Source: Propionibacteriaceae bacterium (GTDB lineage: Bacteria; Actinomycetota; Actinomycetes; Propionibacteriales; Propionibacteriaceae). Taken from it: DNA of 35,707 nucleotides. Every line of letters starts with the position of its first letter. The stretch's first letter is position 1. A program made the position numbers and the translations under genes. Under the pieces are notes generated by a model, which did not search any database, was not told where the DNA came from, and was given only the letters and a program-made list of their open reading frames with translations. Where the stretch lies: NCBI GenBank assembly GCA_030532825.1, contig JAUNKK010000020.1:1-35707 (forward strand). Reading direction: 5' to 3'. Positions 109 through 31,309 of the stretch are shown in pieces.

Positions 109-162
109 AAAAGTCGGGTCAGCAACCAGCCGAGCTGAGGACGAGAGCAGGAGCCGACTTTT
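109..162 (-). terminator. Terminator-like inverted repeat closing the lantibiotic operon
   Basis: AAAAGTCGG (109-117) and CCGACTTTT (154-162) are perfect 9-bp arms around a 36-nt loop that can fold further through AGC/GCT and GTC/GAC. In the minus-strand transcript the stem ends in UUUU, directly after the permease stop codon (162-164). The arms carry A/T tracts on both sides, so it could also stop transcription arriving on the plus strand. Confidence 0.55.
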
Positions 163-1007
163 CAGACGACCCTACGTTCCAGTCGTATTGCTCCGAAGGT
201 CAGCGCGATGAGGGGGTAGGCGACGGCCGCAGCGATCACGAGCGGATAGTTGAGCGTGCTGGTTACTCCGGGGTTATTCGTGATGAGGGAGTTGAAGACA
301 TTGTTGGGCAACCAGTTGGAGAGGTGCCGAGCCGCCTCCATGGGGATCTGCCCCACGATGATCGGTGCGATGAGGGTGACGGCGATGTACACGCCGAGAG
401 CTGGGGCGCTATTGCGCAGCCATAGGGCGATTCCGGTGGCAAAACTGACCGCGCACACGGTCGATAGAGCGAGGGCGCCAATCTGCCGCCACACGTCAGC
501 GTCGAGTAGGGAGATCGAGTATGGGGTGTCAGAGAGCAGCCAACTCTCTACCGGCACCTCCAGCAGCATCATCACGGTGCTCCCGAGCGCGCACGTCAGG
601 GCTGGCCAAGCTGCCTTCGCGACGACGAAACCCAACGGTTGTTGAAGGGCGGAATGGCTGGTGTAGATGAAACCGGAAGACCACTCGGAGCACACGAACA
701 AGATGGCTGCAACCCCGAGGAAGACCTGGGCGAAGGGGAAACCGAAGATTGCGATGTCCCTGACGAACATCGGATCGTCGAGCGGCTGGCCCCCTCGATA
801 CGAGTTAGCGACGCTGAACGCTACAGCACCAGCCAGCCCTGCCATGGCGATGAGCCCGGCTAACACATTGAGCAGGACGGTTCGATTGCCGAAAAACACG
901 TGACCTTGCATGCGCAGCGAGGCGAATGGGCGAAGACGAAGAGACGGTGCGGGGGTGCGCATGGTGATCGTCTTTGAGTGTTGTTTACTTAACGAGGGGG
1001 CAGTCAT
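162..1007 (-). CDS. lanE: ABC-2 type permease, probable lantibiotic self-immunity subunit (LanE-like)
   Basis: This 281-residue protein has about six hydrophobic segments (near residues 43-68, 88-107, 126-150, 172-196, 203-222 and 255-276), as in the membrane half of ABC-2 exporters. Its ATG at 1007 shares a base with the TGA of the upstream ATPase gene (TGATG), so the two are translationally coupled; a second Met at residue 16 is less likely for that reason. As the last gene of the operon, after precursor, synthetase and exporter, it best fits the permease of a LanFE(G) pump that expels the mature peptide from the producer's own membrane. Only one permease gene is present, where LanFEG systems usually have two, so the pump may be a homodimer. 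The immunity role is inferred from position; the sequence itself shows only an ABC-2 permease. Confidence 0.75.
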   Translation of the reverse strand: MTAPSLSKQHSKTITMRTPAPSLRLRPFASLRMQGHVFFGNRTVLLNVLAGLIAMAGLAGAVAFSVANSYRGGQPLDDPMFVRDIAIFGFPFAQVFLGVAAILFVCSEWSSGFIYTSHSALQQPLGFVVAKAAWPALTCALGSTVMMLLEVPVESWLLSDTPYSISLLDADVWRQIGALALSTVCAVSFATGIALWLRNSAPALGVYIAVTLIAPIIVGQIPMEAARHLSNWLPNNVFNSLITNNPGVTSTLNYPLVIAAAVAYPLIALTFGAIRLERRVV

Positions 1008-1897
1008 CAGCTCGCCTTCCGATGCTCGGGTGTAGTGAATTGCAGGTACGCGTCCTCAAGAGACGTGTGGTGAATGGTCAGTAGCAGGGGAACGAACCCG
1101 CCTCGCTGGAGGAGCTGTCCGACCTGCAAGTTCTCACAGTCAAAGACCTCAATGACCCCGTCGCCCATGTCGGCTTGGAATCCGTGGCTGTGTAGCTCTC
1201 GTAGGAGGCGAGGATTATCGGTGGTGGAGACCCGCACTCGGGACGATGTCGCATGGATGTCGCCGAGGGAACCAGACCAGATGGTGGTTCCGTGGTTGAC
1301 CATCGCGATGGTGTCGGCGACTTCCTCGACTTCCGCCAAGGAGTGTGAGGACAGGAGCACTCCGCCGCCCTTTTGCGCGAAATCGCGCAGCAGTTCTCGC
1401 AGCCAGATGATGCCGTCTGGATCTAGACCGTTCATCGGTTCATCTAGGATCAAGAATTGGGGCTCTCCAAGTAGGGCGAGAGCGATCCCGAGGCGCTGTT
1501 TCATGCCCAGCGAGAACGCCCCAACGCGACGATTGAGAGCGTGCCCCAGGCCCACCTGCTCCAGCAATTCCCATCCTCGACTCGTCGGAATCCCGTAGGC
1601 AGCAGCCAGGGAGCGTATCGCAGTCACGGGCGTGAGCTCTTTGAGTACCCCCTGCCGATCAATGAGCGCGCCGAAGGTGGCTAGCGGGGCATCGAGGTCC
1701 CTGACGCGCTGACCGTTGATCGTGGCGTTTCCGCTGTCGGGCTCTTCCACGCCGATGATCATCCGGAGCGTGGTGGACTTGCCGGCCCCGTTGGGGCCGA
1801 CGAACCCAACGATCTCGCCTGGTCTCACCGCGAGAGAGACATCCTTGACGGCCTGGAAACCGGCGTAGGACTTCGAGATGTTGTTGACTTCTAGCAT
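1007..1897 (-). CDS. lanF: ABC transporter ATP-binding protein, probable lantibiotic immunity ATPase (LanF-like)
   Basis: This 296-residue ATPase has Walker A GPNGAGKST (residues 34-42), a signature variant FSLGMKQR (about 128-135) and Walker B LILDEP. The SLGMKQR-type signature is typical of the BcrA/LanF/NatA group of drug and lantibiotic exporters, not of importers. The reading frame stays open further upstream, but the start is placed at the ATG at 1897 because it overlaps the TGA of lanT (TGATG) and the family homology begins there (MLEVNNISKSY). The stop overlaps the permease start in the same way. It should power the 162-1007 permease at the inner face of the membrane. A general multidrug exporter is the alternative, but the coupling to lanT and lanM argues for self-protection. 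Confidence 0.8.
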   Translation of the reverse strand: MLEVNNISKSYAGFQAVKDVSLAVRPGEIVGFVGPNGAGKSTTLRMIIGVEEPDSGNATINGQRVRDLDAPLATFGALIDRQGVLKELTPVTAIRSLAAAYGIPTSRGWELLEQVGLGHALNRRVGAFSLGMKQRLGIALALLGEPQFLILDEPMNGLDPDGIIWLRELLRDFAQKGGGVLLSSHSLAEVEEVADTIAMVNHGTTIWSGSLGDIHATSSRVRVSTTDNPRLLRELHSHGFQADMGDGVIEVFDCENLQVGQLLQRGGFVPLLLTIHHTSLEDAYLQFTTPEHRKAS

Positions 1898-4032
1898 CAC
1901 AATGTCACTTTCTGGTTGTCGTCTGTATTGCGGTAGGCGCTGTGCATCCGGAAGAACAACCCGCCACGGACAAGGAGTTCGCCGTAGCTGCCTTGTTCGG
2001 CGATCACTCCATCGTCCATGACCAGAATTCGATCCGCGCCGGTGATCGTCTCGAGCCGATGCGTCACCGTGATGGTGCTGCACCCAAGAGCACTAAGGTT
2101 TTGGTGCACCATGGCCTCTGTCGCTTGATCCAGCGCTGACGTGGCTTCGTCGAGGATCAGAAGGCGAGGGCGCCTCAGTAGGGCGCGTGCGATGGCAATG
2201 CGCTGGCGTTGACCGCCTGACAGGTTCTGTCCGCCGTTGGTCAAAAAGGTGTTGAGCCCCATCGGCAGATCCTGCTCCGCAATGTCAAAGCACGCTTGCC
2301 GGAGTGCAGCGAGGAGCTCTGCGTCGTCGACGTCTTGGCTCTCCCAGACCAGGTTGTCGCGCAGTGTGGCGTTGCGCAGCGGGGTCTCCTGTGGGACGTA
2401 GACCACATTGTCGAAAAAGCTTCGCTTGCTTACCTCTGCTAGTGGCCTGGCACCGCAACAGACGCTGCCCTCATTGGGGCGATACAAACCGGACAGTAGG
2501 CCGACAAGCGTGGATTTGCCGCTGCCAGTGGGGCCGACGACGGCGATCCTTTCGCCTTCTTCGCACCGTAGGCTGACCCCCTTAAGGGCCTGGGGGGCGA
2601 AGGAGGAGAAACGGAATGAGGCCTTCTCTGCTTCCAGGGGGAAACGGAACTCTTCTCCCGAGGCGTCGGCGAAGGCGCTATCAGCACAGGAAGACAGAAT
2701 GTCATCGAGGCGGCGTACGGTGGCATTAGCCTCGCCGATCTCAACGGCCATGGAGCCCAGACTGCTGAGCTGGCCGAAAAAGACCCCGGCGATCATCTGG
2801 AGGCCGACCGCCGCCGGGAAAGGCATACCGTTGCCTAGGGGAGAGACTGCCAGCACCAGTACGACGAGTGGCCCGAAACTCTGGATCGTGGAGGCGGTTG
2901 CGTTCAAGGTCCCGGCGAGCAAGGCTCGGGTGCGGCGTGCGTGGACCGCGTTCGAGTTGTGACCGGCCCATATGGTACAGGTCTGTTTCTCAGAACCAAG
3001 ACTCTTGACCAGCTTGATTGAGTTGAGCGAGTCCACGAGGATCGAATTAGCCAGCGACTCCGCCGCATTGAGGTCCTCGGTCATCGTGTTCGTGGTGCGG
3101 CGACTGAGCTCAAAGGCAGCGATGTAGATGATCAGGACGACGGTGACGACTAGGCCGATGCTCGGTGCGGTGATGAGCATCCAACCGAGGCTGACCACGG
3201 AGATGACGGAGGAAACTACGCCTCGGGCCAGTGTTGTGGACAGGGATTCCTCCAAGCCTCTGATGATGCCGACGCGGAACAGCAGCTCACCCACGGGCCG
3301 GACCACGAAGTAGGAGTACGGAGAGTCCAGAAGTTTCCGTACTGTGATTTCCCCGAGACGCTTGCCTATGTCGGTGGCGCAAAACGTGGCGACCGCGATG
3401 TTGAGAATCTGGATGAGGAAGAAACCGGTGGCCAAGACGCCCATGATCAGCAGCAAAGAGACGGGGGGTGTGGTCGCTGTTCCCTCCAACAAGAGGCTCG
3501 TGAGGCTGGGGAGAGCCAGCGTCGTGCCCCCCACGATGACGGCCCCGACAAGCACGGCCGCTATCAGGCGCGGCCGAGTCCAGGCGATTCCGAGTACGTC
3601 CAGCCACGGCGAAGCGTCGGGGACCCCCTGGCGAGTGGCCGGGCTGGTCACACAGAGGGCCAAGCCAGCGCAGTGCTCATCGAACTCCTGAGCATTAACG
3701 ATTCGTCGACCGACAGCAGGATCCATAATGACGTGCTTGCGTCCTCGAACCTTCTCGAGAACTACGTAGTGAGACGGCTCCCAGAGCAGGATCGCGGGCG
3801 TCGGGAGAAGATGTGCAGTATCGGTGGTCACTCGGTACACCTTGGCTGTGGCTCCGTACGCCTCAATAAGCTGCTTGAGTTGCGGGATGGTCAGACCATC
3901 CCGACCGGGCATGAATCGTTCACGCATGTTTCTTAAGGAGAGCTTGGCCCCCATGGCTCGTAGTGCCATGTGGGCGCAGGCGATTCCACAGTCGGACTGG
4001 GTGACCTGGTAGGACACCTTCACGCGAGCCAT
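1897..4032 (-). CDS. lanT: Lantibiotic-processing ABC exporter with N-terminal C39 peptidase (LanT/PCAT)
   Basis: This 711-residue bifunctional transporter has three parts. The N-terminal C39 peptidase has Cys15 in QSDCG, His88 in SHYVV and Asp104 in MDPA, the expected catalytic triad. A six-helix exporter domain covers about residues 140-420. The nucleotide-binding domain has Walker A GPTGSGKST (500-508), LSGGQ (604-608) and LLILDE (624-629). C39 peptidases cut after a double glycine, and the precursor at 7043-7201 carries Gly24-Gly25. The protein should therefore remove the leader and export the core in one step. The frame is also open from a GTG at 4041. The ATG at 4032 is preferred because GAGGTG lies 6 bases before it. 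It overlaps the end of lanM by 13 bases, so the two are likely translationally coupled. Confidence 0.93.
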   Translation of the reverse strand: MARVKVSYQVTQSDCGIACAHMALRAMGAKLSLRNMRERFMPGRDGLTIPQLKQLIEAYGATAKVYRVTTDTAHLLPTPAILLWEPSHYVVLEKVRGRKHVIMDPAVGRRIVNAQEFDEHCAGLALCVTSPATRQGVPDASPWLDVLGIAWTRPRLIAAVLVGAVIVGGTTLALPSLTSLLLEGTATTPPVSLLLIMGVLATGFFLIQILNIAVATFCATDIGKRLGEITVRKLLDSPYSYFVVRPVGELLFRVGIIRGLEESLSTTLARGVVSSVISVVSLGWMLITAPSIGLVVTVVLIIYIAAFELSRRTTNTMTEDLNAAESLANSILVDSLNSIKLVKSLGSEKQTCTIWAGHNSNAVHARRTRALLAGTLNATASTIQSFGPLVVLVLAVSPLGNGMPFPAAVGLQMIAGVFFGQLSSLGSMAVEIGEANATVRRLDDILSSCADSAFADASGEEFRFPLEAEKASFRFSSFAPQALKGVSLRCEEGERIAVVGPTGSGKSTLVGLLSGLYRPNEGSVCCGARPLAEVSKRSFFDNVVYVPQETPLRNATLRDNLVWESQDVDDAELLAALRQACFDIAEQDLPMGLNTFLTNGGQNLSGGQRQRIAIARALLRRPRLLILDEATSALDQATEAMVHQNLSALGCSTITVTHRLETITGADRILVMDDGVIAEQGSYGELLVRGGLFFRMHSAYRNTDDNQKVTL

Positions 4033-6953
4033 AGTGGGCACCTCACAGTCGGATGGGAATCATCAAGGGAGGCCTCGAAAAGTGCGGCGCCGGCCGTGCC
4101 ACACATGAGGGAGTGGGAGATGGCGGTTCTCGTCGGCTTGGTCAATTCCCGCGGCAGGACATCTCTGACGTAACGTCGAGATTCTTTAGCGACCTCCGCG
4201 GCCAATGGATCGTTGTCCATGAGGGCGGCGACTTCGCGCAACACCCACAGGTTGCCCACATCCCCGTGGCACAAGGATGTGTTGCCGCCGAAGCAGTCGT
4301 TCTTCGTGACCTTTACGAGGAACGAGATGATGGGTTCGAGTTTGTGGTCGTCGAAGCGTCCAGTGGAGTGGATCTGGGCTAGCGCAAGGAGAACCCCAGG
4401 AGTGCCAGAGCACCAGCCGCGGCCGTGCAGGTCGTGTTCAGTCCCGATAGTCCACAGCCCGGTCTCGGGTTGCCGAGCCGCCAACAGCCGGGACAGCGCT
4501 TCGGCAGCAGCCCAGTCGACTATCGGGGAGCGGACGAGGGGAGCTGCCAGGGCGAGGGCAGCTGCGATGCCGGCCTGTCCGTGGGCATAGCCGGTTAGAT
4601 TCGTCGGCTTTTGCTGGCCGAGAAGGCAGCCGGCGAGCCGCGTCGTGATCGCCGTCAAGGAATTCAAAGATTCTGCTGCGTCGTCGCCGACCGGGTTCAT
4701 CGCAAAATGCGTGAGGATGAGGGCCAGCCCAGCGTCCCCACCGACCACATCTTCGCCCTCCGAAGGCGTCTCGCAAAGCGACCGGAGCAACTGGCGTGAG
4801 CGTAACGCCAACCATTCGTTATGCACCTGCTGGGCATGGCAGTCCGCCGCCCAGAGGGCTGACTCAATGCCAGCTAAGGGGCCTCTAGTCAGACGGGGAT
4901 CTAGGACTGCTCCGTCCCCCAGCTTGCTCATCAGCCCGTGAAAGTACTCGTCGGCCATGTCGATGGACCCGCCCGGGCAGGCGGCGGTGGCGAGCGCCAC
5001 CCCGCTGGAACCCGCGTAGGCGTCCAGGCTGAGCTCGTGCGGATACCAGTACTGATGGGCGGTGTTGCTCAGTCGGGCACCGAGCCATGTCGGAGCGAAC
5101 TCGCCCTCGGCTCGCAAGTGGCCAAGACTCAGGTCCTGCCAGCGGTGCCCTGCGGGTGGAGCGAGTGGGCGAGTGTCGTCCGAGGTGGGGTTGAACTCGA
5201 AACCGGTGCCCTCCTGGTCTTCCCCGTAGTAGGGGGCGAAGGACACGCGGATCATCCACTCGCTGAGTCGGATGAACTCATCATCGATGCTCTGCAGAGC
5301 GGCGACGGCCGAATCGAGAGGACTGGCGGTCATGGCTTCGGGAAGCACCACCTGGTGATCAGAGATGAGGTCGGTCCCGGTGGCGGCCACCACGAAAGTC
5401 GGTGTATCCCATTGGGCGAGTTGCTTCAATTCGGAGGCGAGCAGCGCTGCGGGGACATCACCGCGGAACACGCCGACCCGCGACAGGGCAGCCAACAGCA
5501 GTTCGGGGTCACTCAGGCAGGCTGCATTGGTGGCGAGTTCCAGCACCTTCGTGTAGCGGACGGTGTCCGCAGCAACACTGCGCACCCAGCAATCAGCGAA
5601 GGTGCGTCGGATGAACTGGACGAGGGTCGGGACATCGGCCAGTGCAGCAGCAAGGGTGGCTCGGAATGATTCACACACGGCATCGACGAACTTTCCGCTC
5701 ACCCTCACTGAAGGAGGCGCTTCCGATGGGGCATCGGCGAGTACCTCGTGCTTGATCCGCATATCCGAGGTGAATGGGTCGTGGAGGGTCAAGACTCGTT
5801 CTGAACTGCCACCGGGAGATCGCTGCCCCAGCACCCCGACATCTACGAACATGGGGTTGCGCCGGTGGGGAACGATCAGCGGCGAGGGGAAGAAGCCCGA
5901 GGTGGTGACAAGGCGAGCCAAAGTTCGGGAGGCAGGGTTGAGGGGATTCTGCCGTGATTCGAGAAGACTGGAGAACAGGGTTTCCGTGTCTGTGAGGATA
6001 GGTATTCCGTTCTTAAACCGGACGTTCTCGAAATGAACATCGGAGATTCCGAGCAACTGCACAGCCGCCGCGAAAGCCCCTAGCGCGGCTGGATCGGTGA
6101 ATCTGCTGTCTTGGTCGTCGGTCACGTATTCGGCCCATCCGTAGTCGCCTCGATCGATGACTTTACAGGCGCGGAGTTTTGGATTGTTCGTGAGGGTGTT
6201 AAGGTGTTTCTGAAAGGTTTCGAATGCGCGGTCATTCGCCAGTGGTCTTGGTTTATATACTAGCCGTGATTCGTTGGAGAATGTTAGGACCGTCACAGAT
6301 TTCCCGTGGTGAGAATCTCCTTGGCCAAGGGAAATATCGACTACCCTTGCGTCCCGGGGAATGCCCAACTCGTGAAGGGAGGGGAGGTCGAATTTAAGCT
6401 GATCCAGCAGTTGCTGGATGAAGTCCGTTCGGCGTTGAACAACGCAGCGTGCGATGTTGACAGCGATAGGGTATCCCTCCTGAAACAGGCGAAGACCGCG
6501 TTTAGTGGCTAGGAGAGTTGATAAACGGGAGTATTCGCTCCTTCGACACGTGATCTGGTCTTTGGGGAGTTGGTGCTCCGATGCGAATCTGATCTGTGCG
6601 CGCAGCACAATTTGTTCCACCTGTGCGATGACTGCAGCCGTCACGGAGCGCTGTACCCTATGAGGATTGGCTAGGAGATCATGCTGGGTGATCGAATCGA
6701 GCAGAAGCGCCATTTCTTCATGGATGAGAGACAACGTTGCTTCGAAAAACGGGAAGGGCTCCGGGGTCTCGGTCTCGGGCAGAAGGTCGCTTACCCGCTG
6801 AAGCAGTGCCAACGGGCAGTTGGTGATAGGGTTCGTCTCAACGAGCCGGGAATTCAGTTCGGCAAGTACCTCGTGCGCACGGTTTCGAGTCAGCAAGGCA
6901 TCGACCTCGGTAGAGTCGAGTTCTGGGAAGGCTGCATAAACTGTCGGCTGCAT
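4020..6953 (-). CDS. lanM: Class II lanthipeptide synthetase LanM
   Basis: This 977-residue enzyme would dehydrate Ser/Thr of the precursor and cyclise them with Cys. The N-terminal dehydratase (DUF4135) shows the kinase-like motifs VYKPRP (232-237), DVHFEN (305-310) and DTETLF (322-327). The C-terminal LanC-like cyclase shows all three zinc ligands: Cys848 in WCSG, and Cys895-His896 in LCHG. The length is normal for LanM. The ATG at 6953 has AAGGAG 7 bases upstream. The gene lies 90 bp after the precursor stop, across a hairpin, and runs into lanT. The start-proximal half looks less GC-rich than the housekeeping genes further right, which would fit acquisition by transfer; I did not measure this. 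All motifs needed for activity are intact. Confidence 0.96.
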   Translation of the reverse strand: MQPTVYAAFPELDSTEVDALLTRNRAHEVLAELNSRLVETNPITNCPLALLQRVSDLLPETETPEPFPFFEATLSLIHEEMALLLDSITQHDLLANPHRVQRSVTAAVIAQVEQIVLRAQIRFASEHQLPKDQITCRRSEYSRLSTLLATKRGLRLFQEGYPIAVNIARCVVQRRTDFIQQLLDQLKFDLPSLHELGIPRDARVVDISLGQGDSHHGKSVTVLTFSNESRLVYKPRPLANDRAFETFQKHLNTLTNNPKLRACKVIDRGDYGWAEYVTDDQDSRFTDPAALGAFAAAVQLLGISDVHFENVRFKNGIPILTDTETLFSSLLESRQNPLNPASRTLARLVTTSGFFPSPLIVPHRRNPMFVDVGVLGQRSPGGSSERVLTLHDPFTSDMRIKHEVLADAPSEAPPSVRVSGKFVDAVCESFRATLAAALADVPTLVQFIRRTFADCWVRSVAADTVRYTKVLELATNAACLSDPELLLAALSRVGVFRGDVPAALLASELKQLAQWDTPTFVVAATGTDLISDHQVVLPEAMTASPLDSAVAALQSIDDEFIRLSEWMIRVSFAPYYGEDQEGTGFEFNPTSDDTRPLAPPAGHRWQDLSLGHLRAEGEFAPTWLGARLSNTAHQYWYPHELSLDAYAGSSGVALATAACPGGSIDMADEYFHGLMSKLGDGAVLDPRLTRGPLAGIESALWAADCHAQQVHNEWLALRSRQLLRSLCETPSEGEDVVGGDAGLALILTHFAMNPVGDDAAESLNSLTAITTRLAGCLLGQQKPTNLTGYAHGQAGIAAALALAAPLVRSPIVDWAAAEALSRLLAARQPETGLWTIGTEHDLHGRGWCSGTPGVLLALAQIHSTGRFDDHKLEPIISFLVKVTKNDCFGGNTSLCHGDVGNLWVLREVAALMDNDPLAAEVAKESRRYVRDVLPRELTKPTRTAISHSLMCGTAGAALFEASLDDSHPTVRCPLWLA

Positions 6954-6983: not shown

Positions 6984-7017
6984 GGTGGGGGTGTGGAATG
7001 GGTCCCGCACCCCCACC
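6984..7017 (-). terminator. Hairpin between lanA and lanM, possible attenuator
   Basis: GGTGGGGGTG (6984-6993) and CACCCCCACC (7008-7017) are perfect 10-bp arms with a 14-nt loop. The hairpin lies between the precursor stop and the LanM ribosome-binding site. No U-run follows it in the minus transcript (CAACAAAUAAU), so it should terminate only partly or act as an RNA stabiliser. Either way more precursor than synthetase would be made, as is common in lantibiotic operons. Confidence 0.55.
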
Positions 7018-7042: not shown

Positions 7043-7201
7043 TCACCAGCCGCAGATGAATCCGTTGCACTCCCAGGAGATAGTGCAAACGCGGCCGATA
7101 GTGTGGGTTCCGGGGACGGTCCAGAGGCCGCCAGCCTGGTTGTTTTCGGACGGCGACAGTTCATGCTCGGCGACTTCCTGCAGGAATTCCTTGTCGGACA
7201 T
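7043..7201 (-). CDS. lanA: Class II lantibiotic precursor peptide, actagardine/mersacidin-like
   Basis: This 52-residue precursor starts at an ATG (7199-7201) with AAAGGAG 5 bases upstream and ends in TGA at 7043-7045. Residues 1-25 are an acidic leader with ELSPSE (14-19) and end in Gly24-Gly25, the site for the C39 peptidase of LanT. The 27-residue core begins LWTVPGTH and contains VCTISWEC (38-45) and ends NGFICGW. CT-x-[ST]-x-EC is the lipid II-binding motif of the mersacidin group. From core Thr9 on, the core aligns without gaps to actagardine: Thr9-Cys14, Thr15-Cys20 and Ser17-Cys25 fall where rings A-C are. The fourth ring's partners are Gly22 and Trp27, so that ring cannot form. Core Thr3 and Thr7 could be dehydrated but have no spare Cys. 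Ring assignment is inference by alignment from memory. Confidence 0.92.
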   Translation of the reverse strand: MSDKEFLQEVAEHELSPSENNQAGGLWTVPGTHTIGRVCTISWECNGFICGW

Positions 7202-7248
7202 TGTTGCTCCTTTGCTTTTCTTGGCCGACCCTTTGTCGACCTGCTAAA

Positions 7249-7277
7249 ACTCTATGAAACCCGCCATGATGCGTCAA
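7249..7277 (-). promoter_or_regulatory. Predicted promoter of the lantibiotic operon
   Basis: On the minus strand, TTGACG (7277-7272) and TAGAGT (7254-7249) are separated by exactly 17 bases, a close match to a vegetative sigma-70 promoter. Transcription would start near 7242, about 40 bases before the lanA ATG. No regulator gene of the LanRK or LuxR type is seen next to it. Confidence 0.6.
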
Positions 7278-7325: not shown

Positions 7326-7670
7326 TTATAGGGCTGTGTGGGGTTGGCCGCGAGTTGTGGGTACGTCCTGCTTAGGCGGTTTGTGTGTTGGTTGTTGTTT
7401 TCTGTTGGTGTTGTTCGTTCTCGGCTGGTCGTTGGTGGTCGAGTGGGAGTGTCGGTGCTTGTGGTTGTAGATGGTTTCGTTCCAGGCTGTGATGGCCTGG
7501 CGTGCTTCTGTTCTGGTGGGCCGGGTGTGGCGTTGGTGGAAGTCGTGTTTCGGGGTGGAGAAGAAGGATTTCTGTAGTGCGTTGTCGTAGTAGATTCTGG
7601 TGTGTCTCATCGACGAGGTCAGGTTCAGATCGGTGGTGAGTTGCTGCAGCTGGCTGGAGGTGTGTTGGTC
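7326..7670 (-). pseudogene. IS3-family transposase orfB, C-terminal remnant
   Basis: The minus strand encodes a stretch with YYDNALQKSFFSTPKHDF and, later, PTRTEARQAITAW and YNHKHRHS. These match the end of IS3-family OrfB (the SFFxTLKxE catalytic-Glu region and the YNxxRxHS motif). The catalytic-Glu position reads KHD, not KxE. The remnant begins at QHTS, right after the inverted repeat of the neighbouring IS30 element. The N-terminal part, with the first catalytic Asp, is absent on both sides. It reads through in frame from the frameshifted IS30 gene only by chance. It is dead, and lies about 50 bp beyond the lanA promoter. Confidence 0.75.
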
Positions 7671-7693
7671 GGGTTCAACTGGTCGTTGCAACA
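7671..7693 (+). repeat. IS30 left inverted repeat
   Basis: This end reads GGGTTCAACTGGTCGTTGCA and pairs with the complement of 9094-9116, with differences at three or four positions in 23. It overlaps the transposase stop codon. Confidence 0.75.
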
Positions 7694-9073
7694 CTGGCTT
7701 GTTGTATTGATTGTGGGTAGTCGTTGAAGGCTTCGGCAGGGGTTCTCCATTTGAGGTTCTTGCGGGGCCGGTTGTTGAGGGTGTGGGTGACAGTGTCGGT
7801 GTCGTTGGCGCTCCAGCGGGTGAGGTGGTGTCTTTGGGGAAGTATTGGTGCAGCAGTTCGTTGGTGTTTTCGTTTATGCCGTGTTGCCAGGGCGAGACAG
7901 GATCAGGGAAGTAGACCGGGATGCCGGTTTCGATGCTGTTCAGGGTGTGGGTGGTCATCTCTTTGCCTCGGTCCCAGGTCGATGACCTTGCTAGTTCGGC
8001 AGGTGGGGTGGGCATCTGGTTTGTGAGGGTGTTCTTCGTCGTGATCGCACCGTAGCCGGTCAGGGCAGGCCTGTTCTTGACTGACGCCCCGAACTGGTAG
8101 CTGTCCTCGCGAGGCAGGTGGACCAGCATCGTGAAGCGGGTGGTTCGCTCGATCACGGTTCTGATCGCGGAGCGCTCCAACCTGATCAACAGGTCGCCCT
8201 CCCAATGTCCTGGGATGGTGCGGTTGTCGGCTTCAGCCGGGCGTTGACTGAGCAATGTCGCCTCGGTGGCATGGGCTCAGGTCTTGCGCCTCGATCGTGT
8301 CTGGGGGCTCCGAAGCGTTCTGCTGGTGCGCAAACACCACACTAGCTTCTTTGTTTAAAGCGTCTCTGGTTTCGATGAACAACGACTGGTATATCGTTTC
8401 GTGGCTGATGCGCATGGAGTCATCATCGGGGAAGTTGGTCTTCACCTGGTTGTTGATTTGTTCCGGGCTCCAACCTGACACCCAAGCCCGTTCCTTACGA
8501 GGAGGCTTGTTACGGCCTGTGAACTGAGGCGGCAGGGGCCCGTCAATCACAGTGCCGTCCAGGCGCCAGATCTTGCCCGGCAGTCGCTGCTCAACGTAGT
8601 CCCGCAGCCGCGAGCCGGTGACCAGCTTCGCTTGTTTGGGACGCTTCGCGGCCTGTCGGCCTTCCACTGCGCCACTGACGCCCGATACTCCCGCCTCCCA
8701 TCTCGGGTGGCAGCGTTACGGCCAAGCTCACCACTGATCGTGCCTGGATCACGACCTACTGCCCGTGTGATCTCACAAACCCCCTTTGCCCTGGGCCCGC
8801 AAGATCGCGGTCTCCTCCCGCTCAGCAAACTGCAAGTAGCGGCCCGATGCGCCAGAATCCACGTCGAATGGTGGCATGCCACCAGCCTCGCGGAACCAGC
8901 GCACCCCTACCGCCTGTGCCACGCCCGCAACCGTCGAAGCCTCCTCAGACACCAACCCCCTGGGCAATGGCCCTCCAAAACTCCACCTCGACATGCCGCT
9001 GAAACTTCGGATGCCCCGGCGAACGCAACTTCCCACGAACAGCCCGATCCGCATCCTGCTGACGACGACCCAT
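7675..9073 (-). pseudogene. IS30-family transposase, multiply frameshifted
   Basis: The product starts at the ATG at 9073 (MGRRQQDADRAVRG) and ends at the TGA at 7675-7677, inside the inverted repeat. The reading passes through about six frame segments: roughly 9073-8965, 8965-8780, 8780-8660, 8660-8250, 8250-7830 and 7830-7675. In order they show the IS30 N-terminal region (FREAGGMPPF, SGRYLQFAEREE), the helix-turn-helix (ISGELGRNAATR), WSPEQINNQ with SMRISHETIYQSLF, and the DDE core: GHWEGDLLI, STWDRGKEM and NENTNELLHQYFPK. The tail, NNRPRKNLKWRTPAEAF, is in another frame. Catalytic residues survive but the gene cannot make an intact transposase. Confidence 0.85.
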
Positions 9074-26289: not shown

Positions 26290-27606
26290 ATGGCCAACTC
26301 ACCATCCGTGGGGCCAAGCCCCAGACCGACCCCGTCGCCGCAAGGGTCCCCGGGTGCCGTCCCGCGGTCCGCGCAGCTCACCGAGCTGATGGCGCGGCCC
26401 GGTGCTGCCCCGGAGCCGGGCCCAACAACACCACGGAACGTGAAGCCCGCTCAGCCGCAGCCAGGGGCCCAGCCACTCGCGGCCCAGGACGATGGGCCGG
26501 CCACGGAGCTGATCCAGGAGTCAGCCACCGCAGGAGAGGATGAGGCCACCACCGAGCGCCTCCCCGAGCTCCCCCGCCAGCCTCAGCCGTCCATCACGGA
26601 ACGCTTCCCGGACCTGTACCGTCAGCCCACGTCGGCTGCCTCCTACCCGACCCCGACGCTACCGGAACCCGAGCCGGCGCCGTCCCCCGGATATCCGCCG
26701 CCCAGTGCATCGCAGTCCCAGGGCTACGCGCCAGCACCCCCGCAGGGTTATAGCCCACAACCACCAGGCTACGGCCCGCCTCAGCCGGGCTATGGGCCAT
26801 CACAGCCCCAGGGCTACGCCCCGATCCCGCCCCAAGGTTATGGCCCGCAGCCGGGCTACGGCCCCTACGATCCGGCTTACGGCTACGCGCCCCAGGGCCA
26901 GCCGCCGTACGGTTACGCCCCCCAGGCCGCCCCGTCGCCAGCGGCCGAGCCCCAGCCCGCTGACGAGCCTAGGCCGAAGTCCGGAGCTACGGCCTTCTGG
27001 GGCATCATCGCGTGGCGGCTTGTCCTGGCGGTGTTGGCGGCGATCCCGCTGTTCTCCCTGCTGGAAGTGGCCTCCCGGCCGTGGGAGTTGCTCAACCAGC
27101 TGTTGTACTTCACCCTGCTGACGGACATCGTGATCCTCCTCGTCAACGGCTACGGCGTCATCCGGCCGCTGCTGCTGTTCTGGGCGGCCCCGCACCTGCG
27201 CACCGAGGGGCGCACCGCCTGGGCCCGCGGCCTGGCCACGACGATGGGGGTGTTCACCGCCGTGATCTACGCCACCATGCTGGGCGGCGACTACTCCGGT
27301 GTCTCCGTCATTCCGCATCTCATCTTGCCCGTCGCCATGGTGATTGATTGGCTGTTCATCGGCCGCGCCCAGGGCAACAATGGGCTCTCGGCCCCCATCA
27401 CCTGGGTGCTGCTGCTGGCGCCTTACGTGGGCATCTACTACTGGGATGCGACGGTGGATCGCCCCATGTACTCGTTCCTGAACCCCAGCAAGGACGACTT
27501 CTGGCCTCTCATGGGTGCAATGGTCGGCAGCTACGCGGTACTGGCCGTCGTCGTGTGGCTGCTGGGACGGCTTTCCAGCTGGATCCGCCACACCGCCCAG
27601 GGCTAA
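26290..27606 (+). CDS. Pr6Pr-type six-TM membrane protein with Pro/Gly/Tyr-rich N-terminus
   Basis: This 438-residue protein falls in two halves. Residues 1 to about 232 are a low-complexity cytosolic tail rich in Pro, Gln, Gly and Tyr, with GYGP, PQGY and PGYGP units. The rest has six hydrophobic segments (about 240-258, 274-292, 314-332, 340-356, 372-388 and 412-430) and motifs LLYFTLLTDIVILLVNG and HLILPVAMVIDW, as in the Pr6Pr family, whose function is not known. Pro/Tyr-rich tails of actinobacterial membrane proteins often take part in protein assemblies at the envelope, but nothing here shows the partner. There is only a weak GGAAAGA ahead of the ATG. Confidence 0.75.
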   Translation: MANSPSVGPSPRPTPSPQGSPGAVPRSAQLTELMARPGAAPEPGPTTPRNVKPAQPQPGAQPLAAQDDGPATELIQESATAGEDEATTERLPELPRQPQPSITERFPDLYRQPTSAASYPTPTLPEPEPAPSPGYPPPSASQSQGYAPAPPQGYSPQPPGYGPPQPGYGPSQPQGYAPIPPQGYGPQPGYGPYDPAYGYAPQGQPPYGYAPQAAPSPAAEPQPADEPRPKSGATAFWGIIAWRLVLAVLAAIPLFSLLEVASRPWELLNQLLYFTLLTDIVILLVNGYGVIRPLLLFWAAPHLRTEGRTAWARGLATTMGVFTAVIYATMLGGDYSGVSVIPHLILPVAMVIDWLFIGRAQGNNGLSAPITWVLLLAPYVGIYYWDATVDRPMYSFLNPSKDDFWPLMGAMVGSYAVLAVVVWLLGRLSSWIRHTAQG

Positions 27607-27659
27607 GTGTCAACCGTGGTGGACTGTTTCGCCTCCTGATCCCGGCTGGGATGGGGAGC

Positions 27660-28613
27660 ATGGAAACACTCATCCGCACCACGCAACTCACCAAACGCTA
27701 CGGCGAGCACACGGTCGTCGACCACGTCGACCTTGAGGTTCAGGAGGGCCGCGTCTACGGCTTCCTCGGCCCCAACGGGGCGGGGAAATCAACCACGTTC
27801 AAGTTGCTCCTCGGCCTGACCCACCCCACCGCGGGCAGCATCGAGATTCTCGGCCATGATCTCTCGCGCGCGAAGGCAGCCGTCCTGCCCCACATCGGCT
27901 CCCTCATCGAGGGGCCCGCGTTCGTGCCGCGTCTCACCGGATACGAGAACATCGCCCTGGTCGCCGACTATCTCAACGCCCCCACCGCCAACATCGGCTG
28001 GGCGCTTGAGACGGTGGGCCTCACCGACGCCGCCAGACGCCGCGCTGGGCAGTATTCGCTGGGCATGAAACAGCGCCTCGGCATCGCCATCGCGCTCGTC
28101 GGCGCGCCCCGCCTGCTGTTCCTCGACGAACCCACCAACGGGCTCGACCCGGCCGGTGTCGTTGAGATCCGCAACCTCATCGTGCGGCTCGCCCGCGAGC
28201 ACGCCCTCACGGTGCTGGTCTCCAGCCATATTCTCAGCGAGATCGAGCACATGGCAGACGACGTCGGCATCATCCAGGATGGAACACTGCGCTACCAGGG
28301 GCCTTTGGCGCATCTCGGCGACGAGGGGCATATGGTTTTCCGCGTGTCGGACCCGCGGACGGCGGCCGCGACCCTGGCCCAGCTGGGCGTCCACACCCGG
28401 CTGGAAGACGACGAACTGTTTGCCAGCGCCCTGCCGGATCAGGTCGTCTCCCGCAGCGTGGTTGAACTGGCGCGTGCCGGCCACCACATCACCCGGGTTG
28501 AGCACCGTCGCCGTTCCTTGGAGCAGATCTTCCTGGCCCTCACCGACCCGGCCAACCCGGCCCCTACCCATGGTCCGGCAGAGGTTAGCCGTGAGGCGGT
28601 GATGGTTCGATGA
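27660..28613 (+). CDS. ABC transporter ATPase, BcrA/lantibiotic-export type
   Basis: This 317-residue ATPase has Walker A GPNGAGKST (37-45), signature YSLGMKQR (132-139) and Walker B LLFLDEP (152-158). A C-terminal extension (about 220-317) is usual in BcrA/NatA-like drug exporters. GGGGAGC sits just before the ATG at 27660; an ATG 9 bases earlier in the same frame is possible. It begins an operon in which each gene overlaps or touches the next: ATPase, two permeases, kinase, regulator. That set is typical of systems that sense and expel peptide antibiotics. It resembles the 1007-1897 ATPase in signature and architecture but is not near-identical. Confidence 0.88.
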   Translation: METLIRTTQLTKRYGEHTVVDHVDLEVQEGRVYGFLGPNGAGKSTTFKLLLGLTHPTAGSIEILGHDLSRAKAAVLPHIGSLIEGPAFVPRLTGYENIALVADYLNAPTANIGWALETVGLTDAARRRAGQYSLGMKQRLGIAIALVGAPRLLFLDEPTNGLDPAGVVEIRNLIVRLAREHALTVLVSSHILSEIEHMADDVGIIQDGTLRYQGPLAHLGDEGHMVFRVSDPRTAAATLAQLGVHTRLEDDELFASALPDQVVSRSVVELARAGHHITRVEHRRRSLEQIFLALTDPANPAPTHGPAEVSREAVMVR

Positions 28614-29383
28614 CTGCTGTCGCCTTACCGTTCCGGCTGGAGTTGCGTAAGCAGCGCCGCGGCCGCCTCGTCAGCTACACCGTCCTCATCTTCGGGCTCT
28701 GGGCCATGTGGACGGCCGGGCTCGTCAGCCATCGCGCCGGTAACGGCGGCAGCTTCGCTGGCCTTGAGTTCGCGTTCCTCGATGTGATGGGCATGGCGGA
28801 GCTGTTCTCCCCGATCTTTATCGCGGTCGCCGCGGCGCAGCTCGTCGCTGTCGACCACCAGGAACGCATCGGGCAGGTCTTCGACGCGCTGGGCCAGCCA
28901 CGCTGGCTGCGCTTCGTGGCCAAGCTTGTCATCCTCAACCTGTTGTCGGCCGCCGGGAGTCTGCTGCTCGTGGGTGTCAGCCTCGGCGTCGGTCGCGCCA
29001 ATGGCATGTCTGCTGGGCCGGAGCTGGCGGCCGTCGCGACCCGCGGCATGCTCGTGCTGCTGCTGGCCGCGGTGCCGGTTGCTGCCGTGCAGCTGGCGCT
29101 CGCGATGCGCTTCCCCGAACGTCCCGTCACCCTCATCGTCGGGGTTGTCGGCGCGTTCGTCGCCTCCAGCCTCAGCCCGCTGCGAATTGCCGAAGTCGGC
29201 TGGCTCCTCCCCTGGGGCATCCTCGTCGGTGCCTCTCCGGTGGAGCGCTCCTACCGATTCGCCGACAGGCTCCAGCTGCTGACCGGTACTACCGCTTCCG
29301 ACACCGCGTTGCTCGTCGTCCTCGCCGCGGCCTGGACAGCGGCCGCCATCTGGTACACCACCCGCACCCGGGAGCTCTCATGA
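28610..29383 (+). CDS. ABC-2 type permease, first of two
   Basis: This 257-residue protein has about six hydrophobic segments and begins with a basic, amphipathic stretch (FRLELRKQRRGRLVSYTV), the common opening of ABC-2 permeases. Its ATG overlaps the ATPase stop by 4 bases (ATGA), so expression is coupled. GMAELFSPIFIAVAAAQL and DHQERIGQVFDALG are the intracellular-loop region seen in LanE/LanG-type permeases. It should pair with the next protein to form a heterodimeric channel. Confidence 0.85.
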   Translation: MTAVALPFRLELRKQRRGRLVSYTVLIFGLWAMWTAGLVSHRAGNGGSFAGLEFAFLDVMGMAELFSPIFIAVAAAQLVAVDHQERIGQVFDALGQPRWLRFVAKLVILNLLSAAGSLLLVGVSLGVGRANGMSAGPELAAVATRGMLVLLLAAVPVAAVQLALAMRFPERPVTLIVGVVGAFVASSLSPLRIAEVGWLLPWGILVGASPVERSYRFADRLQLLTGTTASDTALLVVLAAAWTAAAIWYTTRTRELS

Positions 29384-30165
29384 CCCAGGCAACCGTCATC
29401 CGTCCCCGCGCTCTCACGTTGCGCGCCCTCCGCTGGGAACAGCGCCAGACCTCCCTGCTGCCGGTGATCGCCGTCGCTCTCTTCGTCGGTGGCCTCGGTG
29501 CCCTGATCGCCGCCTGGAGCTACCACCGCTACGAGGGTGCTTTTGCCGCCCAGGACCTCACCTGGGAGGTGGTCCTCCTAGACGGGGCTCAGCTACCGTG
29601 CACGCTGTTCCTCCCGGCTGGGCTCGCGGTGTTCGCCGCCGTCGACGCCGCCAGCGCCCAGCGGGCCCGCCGCTGGCAGCGCGCCCGGTCCCTCGACCGC
29701 GCCGGGGTGCTGCTGCGCGCCCAGTTCCTGCGGAACCTGCAACGCGCCGCCGTGACGGTGACCGTGCTGGTCGTCGCGCTCGCAGCCAGCGCGGTATTCC
29801 TTGGGTTTGGTCGGGGACTCCTCGACGGCGGGCTCAGCATCCTGCTGGGCCGCGGCCTGGCCGCCGTGTTCTGCTGCTGGTGCGTTCAGAATGTCATCAC
29901 GACGGCGGGGCTGTGGGTTCGGGAGTTCGCCGGGCTTGCCGCGCTGGGTCTGTTCGGGGCGATCCTCGGCCTCGCATCCAAGCTCGTCCTGCCGACTGCC
30001 GGATGGGCTGTGCCATTCGCCACGCCCGCCGGCGCCATGGTGACCGCGTCGATTCAGGACCTCATCTCGCCGGTGAACATGACAGGCTGGGCTCTGGTCG
30101 GCCTGGCTTGGACGGCCGTGAGCTATGTCGTCGCCCGGCGGCGTGCCGCGCGAATGGAGGTGTGA
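29380..30165 (+). CDS. ABC-2 type permease, second of two
   Basis: This 261-residue protein has about six hydrophobic segments and a basic start (LRALRWEQRQTSLLPVIAV). It is coupled to the first permease by an ATGA overlap, and one base separates its stop from the kinase ATG. It is equal in size to its partner but clearly different in sequence. Having two unequal permeases matches LanFEG-like exporters. Confidence 0.85.
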   Translation: MTQATVIRPRALTLRALRWEQRQTSLLPVIAVALFVGGLGALIAAWSYHRYEGAFAAQDLTWEVVLLDGAQLPCTLFLPAGLAVFAAVDAASAQRARRWQRARSLDRAGVLLRAQFLRNLQRAAVTVTVLVVALAASAVFLGFGRGLLDGGLSILLGRGLAAVFCCWCVQNVITTAGLWVREFAGLAALGLFGAILGLASKLVLPTAGWAVPFATPAGAMVTASIQDLISPVNMTGWALVGLAWTAVSYVVARRRAARMEV

Positions 30166-30166
30166 C

Positions 30167-31309
30167 ATGACCGCTGGTATTCGGGTCCGGCGCACCCCCT
30201 TCGAGGCCCGCATTGAGGCTTGGGAGGCGCGCCCGCAGCTGGTGGACTGGTTCTGGACGGGGATAGCGGCTGTGTATCTGGTGGTCGGGTTGTGGCGGAA
30301 CCAGGGCTACGCCGCCCAACCCGGAAACCTCGCCTGGTCGGTGCCGTGCGCCGTGGGGGGTGTCGTCGCGGTCGCGCTGCGCCGTCGTTTTCCGATCGCC
30401 ACTGTCGTCGCGGCCGTGGTGGCGATGCTCGTTGAAGCGGCCTTGGGCGGCACCCCCTTCCTGGGAGTACCGGTCCTGTTCCTGCAGTACGCCGTCGCTC
30501 GCTCCGCGCCGCCGGCCCGGGCCGTGGCTGCGACGACGGTGCTGGGCGTCGCGGTCGTGGGCCAGGCGGTGCTCGTGACGCGGGCGGGCGAATTCACCTG
30601 GTCCTCCTACGCTGCCCCGGGGCTGTTGGGTTTGGTGGTGAGCGCCCTCATGGGCCTGCTTGTTCGATGGCGGTTGGAACAGCTTAAGAGCCGCGACCGC
30701 GAAGCCCAGGCAGCTGCCGTCGAGCGGCAGGCGCAGGCACGCATGGCCATTGCCACCGACCTCCACGACACCGTCGGGCACGCCCTCACCGCCGTCGTCA
30801 GCCTCGCCCGCGGGGCCCTCTCCACCCTCGACGGCGACCCGGCCGCGGCCCGGGAGGCGCTGACAATGCTGGAGGAGACCGCGCAGCTAGGCCTAGACCG
30901 AACTCGCGGGGTCGTCGCCCGGCTCAACAGCGAGGCCCCCATCCCCGACGGCGAAACCCTTGAGGCGCTGGTGCAGCGGGTGCGGGTTGCCGGCCGTGAC
31001 GTTCGGGTGATCGCCGGGGCGGGGGCCGGGGCCGCGCATCCGCTGGTCGTGCCGGTGGTGCGGGAAGCCCTCACCAACGCCCTGCGCTACGGCAGCGAGT
31101 CCCCGATCGTCGTCGACGTCACCCCCGCGGGTGGCGGCGTGGAGGTGCGGGTCACCAGCGGGCTGGCAGATCCCGTCGCGCCGGTCGGCTCCGGGCGCGG
31201 CCTGGCGGACCTGCGCCGCCGCGTCACCGAGGCCGAAGGCCAGTTCACAGCAGGCCCAGACGGCGATACGTGGTCGGTGATCGCGACCCTGCCAGAGGAG
31301 TCGCGATGA
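30167..31309 (+). CDS. Histidine kinase of the NarL/DesK class
   Basis: In this 380-residue protein, about five hydrophobic segments occupy residues 30-168 without a large extracellular loop, as in intramembrane-sensing kinases. The HisKA_3 dimer domain has the phospho-acceptor His200 in DLHDTVGH. The ATPase domain has the N-box REALTNALRYG and the G-box GRGLADLRRRV. The start at 30167 has GGAGG 7 bases upstream; an earlier in-frame ATG lies inside the permease gene and is unlikely. The stop overlaps the regulator start (ATGA). Kinases without a sensor loop, beside ABC exporters, often sense the drug through the transporter. That is an inference here. Confidence 0.9.
   Translation: MTAGIRVRRTPFEARIEAWEARPQLVDWFWTGIAAVYLVVGLWRNQGYAAQPGNLAWSVPCAVGGVVAVALRRRFPIATVVAAVVAMLVEAALGGTPFLGVPVLFLQYAVARSAPPARAVAATTVLGVAVVGQAVLVTRAGEFTWSSYAAPGLLGLVVSALMGLLVRWRLEQLKSRDREAQAAAVERQAQARMAIATDLHDTVGHALTAVVSLARGALSTLDGDPAAAREALTMLEETAQLGLDRTRGVVARLNSEAPIPDGETLEALVQRVRVAGRDVRVIAGAGAGAAHPLVVPVVREALTNALRYGSESPIVVDVTPAGGGVEVRVTSGLADPVAPVGSGRGLADLRRRVTEAEGQFTAGPDGDTWSVIATLPEESR

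Follow-up and report, generated by a model that had tools for sequence, protein, structure and literature searches.

A class II lanthipeptide precursor of a Propionibacteriaceae genome combines an actagardine-like C-terminal half with a conserved N-terminal module

The rings of actagardine join positions 1-6, 7-12, 9-17 and 14-19. An excerpt of PMC10676316 gives four bridges for actagardine and one Lan and two MeLan for michiganin A, so that a number of bridges below four may not be new among the relatives of actagardine. In the mersacidin group the motif (C)TXS/TXD/EC is a putative lipid II site that also occurs in alpha peptides, and the replacement of its Glu by Ala abolished the activity of mersacidin, actagardine and haloduracin alpha (excerpt of PMC3918158). 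We describe here a precursor from a window of 35,707 nucleotides, contig JAUNKK010000020.1 of a Propionibacteriaceae bacterium (GCA_030532825.1), which resembles several of these peptides in part. With actagardine and michiganin A, compared by way of an actagardine-type peptide of the related genome G183, the core shares the pattern [ST]-x-G-x-[VI]-C-T-x-[ST]-x-E-C, an eight-residue step from S17 to C25 and a predicted six-residue first ring; unlike actagardine, it has no partners for the fourth bridge and carries eight conserved residues in front, and unlike the G183 precursor, which has no GG, its leader is GG-ended. With plantaricin C it has in common a core of 27 residues, residues ahead of the first ring and a GG leader (partial text of PMC6107846), but the extension is KKTKKN in plantaricin C, which contains one Lan, three MeLan and one Dha, and the precursor scores 18.9 bits against the 29 bits required by the plantaricin C family model NF000539. 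The CTxTxEC ring and an aromatic-T-aliphatic-P-G stretch near the N-terminus recall mersacidin, although the core lacks both the Cys1 and the CIC end of that peptide, and the distance from the N-terminal Thr to the first Cys of the motif is three residues longer. Finally, the lacticin 3147 alpha-type peptides also have a CTxTxEC ring, with a further Cys close to their end, and an alpha-like peptide goes with a LanM close to the one studied here, that of G208; their N-terminus is different, however, and the window holds a single precursor and a single LanM.

The precursor gene lanA (7043..7201, minus strand; ATG at 7201, TGA at 7045-7043) is an open reading frame of 52 codons plus stop that reads MSDKEFLQEVAEHELSPSENNQAGG|LWTVPGTHTIGRVCTISWECNGFICGW. 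Its 25-residue leader (7127..7201, minus strand) ends in Ala-Gly-Gly, the presumed C39 cleavage site, and the 27-residue core LWTVPGTHTIGRVCTISWECNGFICGW (7046..7126, minus strand) contains the motif CTISWEC and would form rings T9-C14, T15-C20 and S17-C25. A ribosome-binding site AAAGGAG, recognised by eye, lies five bases upstream of the ATG (7207..7213, minus strand), and a weak promoter-like site, TTGACG-17-TAGAGT, with 9/12 matches (7249..7277, minus strand), was found once where 0.1 were expected from shuffles. A worn transposase frame is located just upstream of lanA (7326-8255), with an IS30 match over residues 2-143 and an IS3 match over residues 197-271; two elements seem to be fused or nested there. 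A preliminary description of this DNA had reported the 52-codon gene with its ribosome-binding site before lanM, the GG leader and CTISWEC, and all of these were confirmed, the strand, which it did not give, being the minus strand. The precursor was matched at full length (residues 1-51 or 1-52) in three other genomes of the genus group (E 1.4e-26, 4.0e-26 and 3.9e-25) and in part in two further genomes (residues 9-51, E 1.4e-10; residues 5-49, E 1.1e-8), and in every one of these five a lanM lies downstream in the same direction. As the peptide recurs in other genomes, each time before a co-directional lanM, lanA is more than a chance reading frame, and we regard its product as a lanthipeptide precursor with little room for doubt.

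The gene order lanA-lanM-lanT-lanF-lanE, all on the minus strand, is identical in three relatives. LanM (4020..6953, minus strand) is a bifunctional class II lanthionine synthetase of 977 amino acids that reaches 337.5 bits with TIGR03897 (cut-off 304 bits), with a DUF4135 dehydratase domain (PF13575, 212 bits) and a LanC-like cyclase domain (PF05147, 130 bits). Its motifs are GDSH and DVHFEN, which we take to serve dehydration, and GWCSG and LCHG, which presumably supply the zinc ligands Cys and Cys-His; as evidenced by alignments with LicM2 and with eight other LanMs, the zinc ligands and the dehydratase motifs are kept. The gene lanT (1897..4041, minus strand; start GTG at 4041 or ATG at 4032) encodes a C39 peptidase/ABC exporter. 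It is followed by a lanF-like ABC ATPase (1007..1897, minus strand), for which the ATG at 1897 was chosen as in the relatives, a longer reading frame to 2083 overlapping lanT; the product scores 201.4 bits with the lantibiotic protection model, below the cut-off of 309.75. The lanE-like membrane protein (162..1007, minus strand), a presumed immunity permease, matched no family model over cut-off and was assigned by its place and by relatives at 68-72% identity. Note that the window starts at base 1 of its contig, and the operon is visible only as far as lanE at base 162. The LanM domains and motifs, the GG-leader precursor and the C39 exporter identify the locus as a class II lanthipeptide system. 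Between lanA and lanM a hairpin without a T-run is predicted (6984..7017, minus strand; z -2.80). A hairpin of partly different sequence is predicted at the corresponding position in the three genus relatives covered, G070, G147 and G190, with z values of -0.31, -3.29 and -3.78; the first of these values shows no advantage over shuffled sequence. We presume that the hairpin is an attenuator or a site of processing by which an excess of lanA transcripts is maintained.

We refer to the precursors as the LWTVP family. It comprises seven genomes: the one of the window, four relatives in its genus group (G070, G147, G190 and G174), one in another genus of the same family (G183) and one in another order (G644). 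The family thus occurs in 5/39 genomes of the genus group, 1/30 of the genus of G183, and 1/6 of the genus and 1/345 of the order of G644, and in a draw of 396 genomes of the phylum the window genome alone carries it. These counts rest on precursor searches amounting to 1799 genome visits, some genomes being visited repeatedly. One search gave matches in 91/197 genomes at E <=1, of which six, including the window's own, were kept (E 1.1e-8 or less). Four genomes outside the genus (E 0.003-0.007; one stretch, L040, inspected) and G526, G641, G727 and G620 (E 3e-4 to 0.008; two stretches, L045 and L046, inspected) were treated as chance, and the G147 match at L039 (E 0.004) is a real but different precursor that was counted apart. 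The start codons of the G174 and G644 precursors were chosen among several candidates. Besides LWTVPGTHTIGRVCTISWECNGFICGW in the window, the cores are LWTVPGTRTIGAVCTISWECHGFICGWR in G147, LWTVPGTRTIGAVCTMSWECWGFVCGR in G190, LWTVPGTRTIGAVCTVSWECHGFICGLFK in G070, LWTVPGTHTIGAVCTISWECNGGTVCGN in G644, LWTVPTTSTIGYICTISWECTNPPTVCGF in G183 and CWSVPHPSSCGYVCTVSWECSKNWCQPCPPPHHHHHKGC in G174, and most of LWTVPGTxTIGxVCTISWEC is common to them.

Scans of viral contigs confirmed no relative of the precursor. Among plasmid records only three weak matches to it were found (best E 0.6) and none to the G644 peptide, and the LanMs in 167 plasmid records are all less than 60% identical. A phmmer search of the precursor against the PDB returned two chance matches only. 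All Pfam matches of the family precursors remained below cut-off, and none of the curated NCBIfam models was passed; the best curated match of all seven is NF000539 (plantaricin C family, cut-off 29 bits), to which the window and five relatives score 14.3-20.5 bits and G644 23.8 bits. The other G147 peptide reaches 26.3 bits with the same model. A text search of the literature with peptide motif strings found no description of the peptide, supplementary files, where mined precursors are often listed, lying outside its scope, and found no work linking a lanthipeptide with Pseudopropionibacterium. According to a part of PMC7268733, 3002 class II precursors have been catalogued, and the window peptide may be listed there without comment. 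The peptide is of a known kind, and the conserved N-terminal module together with a three-ring lipid II-type end would be a new combination as far as these searches go. The earlier proposal, a class II lantibiotic precursor that is new and resembles actagardine in its C-terminal half, is supported to this extent.

Conservation is distributed unevenly along the precursor. Of the first 20 core residues, 17 are equal to the window in G070, 18 in G147, 17 in G190, 19 in G644, 16 in G183 and 11 in G174, and of the last 20 leader residues the numbers are 15, 15, 17, 7, 4 and 7 in the same order. The LanMs of the genus clade are 66-67% identical to that of the window, a figure that falls to 25.8-26.7% in G644, 24.3% in G183 and 23.9% in G174. 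In G644, 19/20 of the first core residues are thus retained but only 7/20 of the last leader residues, at a LanM identity of about 26%. Residues W2, V4, P5, G11, C14, T15, S17, W18, E19 and C20 are invariant in 7/7 members, Thr or Ser occupies positions 3 and 9 in 7/7, and position 7 is Thr in 6/7; variation is seen in the loop ahead of the last Cys and in the tail that follows this residue, and the step from S17 to the next Cys is 8 in five members and 9 and 10 in the other two. Leader and enzyme have hence drifted while the front 20 core residues mostly stay, with G174 (11/20) as the exception. That conservation steps up at the GG supports cleavage at this point and speaks for the front residues as part of the product. 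The preliminary description had treated the eight front residues as an extra extension, which does not hold, as LWTVPGTH lies in the most conserved part of the family; its changed C-terminal face is to be turned round, the C-terminal end being the part that varies within the family. Nor is an N-terminal extension new in kind, since plantaricin C has six residues before SSGDIC (partial text of PMC6107846). In PMC11251773 the subfamily that contains mersacidin is rated as evolving fast in comparison with its cyclase, and the likeness between some of its members lies mainly in the leader; in the LWTVP family, by contrast, conservation is found in the core and not in the leader. The precursor of the diverged member G174 (L035:7908-8207) terminates in CQPCPPPHHHHHKGC, where five consecutive His occur naturally together with extra Cys; metal binding would be a guess.

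The likeness to actagardine was assessed with the G183 actagardine-type peptide, to which residues 9-27 of the window core align without gaps (8/19 identical, 12/19 with S=T and V=I=L), a similarity reached by 0 of 200,000 shuffles. Three bridge pairs of actagardine align with T9/C14, T15/C20 and S17/C25, and the fourth falls on Gly22 and Trp27, at the places of the actagardine-type T14 and C19, so that the position arithmetic given earlier proved right. The T9-C14 ring would span six residues; a passage of PMC2706954 gives six residues for the actagardine equivalent of ring B and nine for that of mersacidin. The pair for the fourth ring is absent in 7/7 family members, and also from the ends of the second G147 peptide and of the G208 peptide, which belong to the two nearest LanMs with a recognised precursor. 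Its absence may therefore be the older state, and on these alignments the LWTVP family may never have had a fourth ring. G174 has Ser21 and further cysteines, Cys28 and Cys39, with which a different fourth ring is possible in that peptide. The claim that a three-ring peptide had arisen by ring loss thus stood as to the missing partners for a fourth ring, but the loss itself is unsupported, the pair being absent in 7/7 and the actagardine-type LanM lying outside the family. G183 carries its actagardine-type precursor at L034:16211-16387, without a GG leader end and with its own LanM of 1038 amino acids (L051:471-3587); this cluster and the LWTVP precursor share a contig, about 5 kb apart and on opposite strands, and the LWTVP precursor likewise has a LanM of its own.

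A maximum-likelihood tree was computed from 21 LanMs, namely 12 of 31 further loci and nine LanMs from earlier loci; 17 loci below the LanM cut-off were left out, as were L073 and L081, which are parts of one LanM. In this small sample, with no named actagardine or other reference enzymes among its rows, a single branch sets the seven family LanMs apart from the rest (95/96; recovered in 97% of 200 bootstrap trees), and it persists when two long rows are removed (98/95, 97% of 200 bootstrap trees). The actagardine-type LanM of G183 joins other long rows outside the family in both trees, its own place being unsure on a long branch. The rows nearest to the family are the LanMs of the second G147 cluster, whose three-Cys peptide ends in TAGWVCTVSRECWLCWR, of G208, whose four-Cys peptide ends in CTTNTFSLSDAYGNTGGWCTLSQECMSWCP, and of G042. 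Among the residues shared with G644, identical codons were counted as 13 in the window against 10.0 predicted from codon use (P 0.10), 13 in G070 against 9.9 (P 0.08), 10 in G147 against 10.7 (P 0.75) and 13 in G190 against 9.7 (P 0.07). Three of the four comparisons lean to more sharing than expected and none has P <0.05; this test across orders, of G644 against four genus members, gave no clear sign of recent exchange. Because of the single LanM clade and the codon counts, an old cluster with a constrained product fits better than recent exchange, and what the sequences present looks like one old family. Recombination of core and synthetase between unrelated clusters was also considered and set aside as less likely: the seven LanMs form one clade, and no clear codon exchange across orders was seen.

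Several other lanthipeptide loci came to light. The second G147 cluster has its precursor at L050:8424-8726, with three Cys and residues before the motif, ending in TAGGKADAFYSKIRTAGWVCTVSRECWLCWR. The core CTTNTFSLSDAYGNTGGWCTLSQECMSWCP of G208, an actinobacterium (L093:6719-6877), resembles what we take to be the lacticin 3147 alpha sequence, and the peptide passes the plantaricin C family cut-off with 33.6 bits. In G042 (L092:5167-5340) the peptide GG|WTWTIPLATISICPTSACTQVCHR has what is presumably a beta-type end; its W-T-I-P near the front is like the W-T-V-P of the family, possibly by chance. The window genome itself holds a second class II precursor on contig C102 (L090:2992-3147), ...EIEDLLGAG|CGVVCTLTLDCNTGTLGRWWGCC, which scores 34.7 bits with the lacticin 481 family model, below the cut-off of 46 bits, and whose cluster includes a separate LanM (375.5 bits) and what looks by eye like a LanT. 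In G070, taken as [Pseudopropionibacterium] massiliense, two adjacent Cys-rich short reading frames precede a LanM (L091:4556-4783 and 4812-5042) and likely encode a two-peptide lanthipeptide; the first of them (4556-4783) gave no NCBIfam match. Elsewhere in the window, a row of genes (27348-31309) encodes an ABC ATPase, a protein whose ABC-2 membrane match is weak, one that matched nothing and a histidine kinase, perhaps a sensing and export module.

The reading that we favour, with reasonable rather than strong confidence, is that lanA encodes a class II lantibiotic acting as a single peptide, a member of the mersacidin group in its broad sense, which would bind lipid II and have three rings and a conserved N-terminal module. 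LanM would dehydrate Ser and Thr residues of the core and close the rings T9-C14, T15-C20 and S17-C25, while Thr3 and Thr7 would either stay unmodified or become dehydrobutyrine; LanT would cut after the GG and export the peptide, and the LanFE-like pair would protect the producer. The calculated monoisotopic mass of the core is 3035.42 when unmodified, 2981.39 after three dehydrations and 2945.37 after five. Through the ring around CTISWEC the peptide would attach to lipid II and so block cell-wall synthesis, the module L-W-T-V-P-G-T would be kept in the product and needed for action or folding, and the tail after C25 would be free to vary. CTISWEC matches the mersacidin-group motif including its first Cys, and the ring T15-C20 would hold this lipid II motif with Glu19 at the place of the essential Glu. 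On this ground lipid II is probably the target, and the three-ring pattern is the arrangement to which we lean, with less assurance. Points against this reading are that C14 could pair with T3 or T7, that the distance between S17 and the following Cys is not constant (8, 9, 10), that all members lie below the cut-off of the nearest curated family (NF000539, 29 bits) and that G174 equals the window at only 11/20 of the first core residues.

The pairing of C14 leads to a mersacidin topology, in which T3 rather than T9 closes on C14 in a twelve-residue ring with a V-P-G turn and T15-C20 and S17-C25 are the same. Both mersacidin and the window core have [aromatic]-T-[aliphatic]-P-G, the mersacidin sequence being the one we assume, its unmodified positions in agreement with PDB 1mqx. 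Position 3 is moreover Thr or Ser in 7/7 members, and the centre of mersacidin ring B tolerates insertions (excerpt of PMC2706954). The N-terminal likeness is weak, however, being reached by 857-978 of 20,000 shuffles for four cores and by 4582 and 6128 of 20,000 for two diverged ones; the spacing [ST]-x-G-x-[VI]-C fits the actagardine/plantaricin C type, and position 9 is likewise Thr or Ser in 7/7, so that we consider this topology unlikely. Kinship to the mersacidin N-terminus (F-T-L-P-G) was judged to be weak, shuffles reaching the likeness about 1 time in 20. In mersacidin, the exchange of Phe3, which would match Trp2, for Trp raised activity against most organisms tested (excerpt of PMC2706954), which is no more than suggestive. 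Descent from actagardine, with loss of the fourth ring and gain of an N-terminal extension, would account for the gapless 12/19 alignment and for the replacement of both partners of the fourth ring in the window, but it is very unlikely in view of the absence of that pair from all seven members, of a family LanM clade without the actagardine-type enzyme (whose place on its long branch is unsure) and of the presence of both kinds in G183 on one contig, about 5 kb apart and with separate LanMs.

The peptide could also be the alpha half of a two-peptide lantibiotic with its partner encoded elsewhere, given that near LanMs serve the alpha-like G208 peptide and adjoin the G042 peptide ending in CPTSACTQVCHR, and that alpha peptides have the same ring motif (excerpt of PMC3918158). 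Within 3 kb of the seven lanA genes, however, 53 other short Cys-containing reading frames were found, none precursor-like by eye, with a filter that recovered 6/7 family precursors (missing that of G644) and the actagardine-type gene of G183; the other class II precursor of the window genome also has an alpha-type motif, and we hold an alpha role to be quite unlikely. A lanthipeptide with a role other than killing, for example as a signal, would be conserved as strongly in its core as is seen here for receptor binding, but the LanF-like protection ATPase, although below its cut-off, speaks for an antibiotic, as does the lipid II motif, and such a role is highly improbable.

Starting from the lipid II-binding lantibiotic that we favour, we tentatively suggest as a further possibility, less probable than not by some way, that the N-terminal module LWTVPGTxTIG is a second working face that folds over the lipid II-binding ring and makes its own target contact. 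In six members position 1 is Leu and position 10 Ile, and G174 has Cys at both, which may hint that the two positions touch, although this is a single observation in a peptide that is generally rich in Cys. If true, a second face would explain why the first 20 core residues are nearly fixed in 6/7 members despite the drift of the synthetase to about 26% identity. Lipid II-binding lantibiotics of the mersacidin/actagardine group are antibiotic leads, and this compact peptide, which probably has three rings and keeps its N-terminal module across two orders of Actinomycetes, would be a natural test of which parts are selected.
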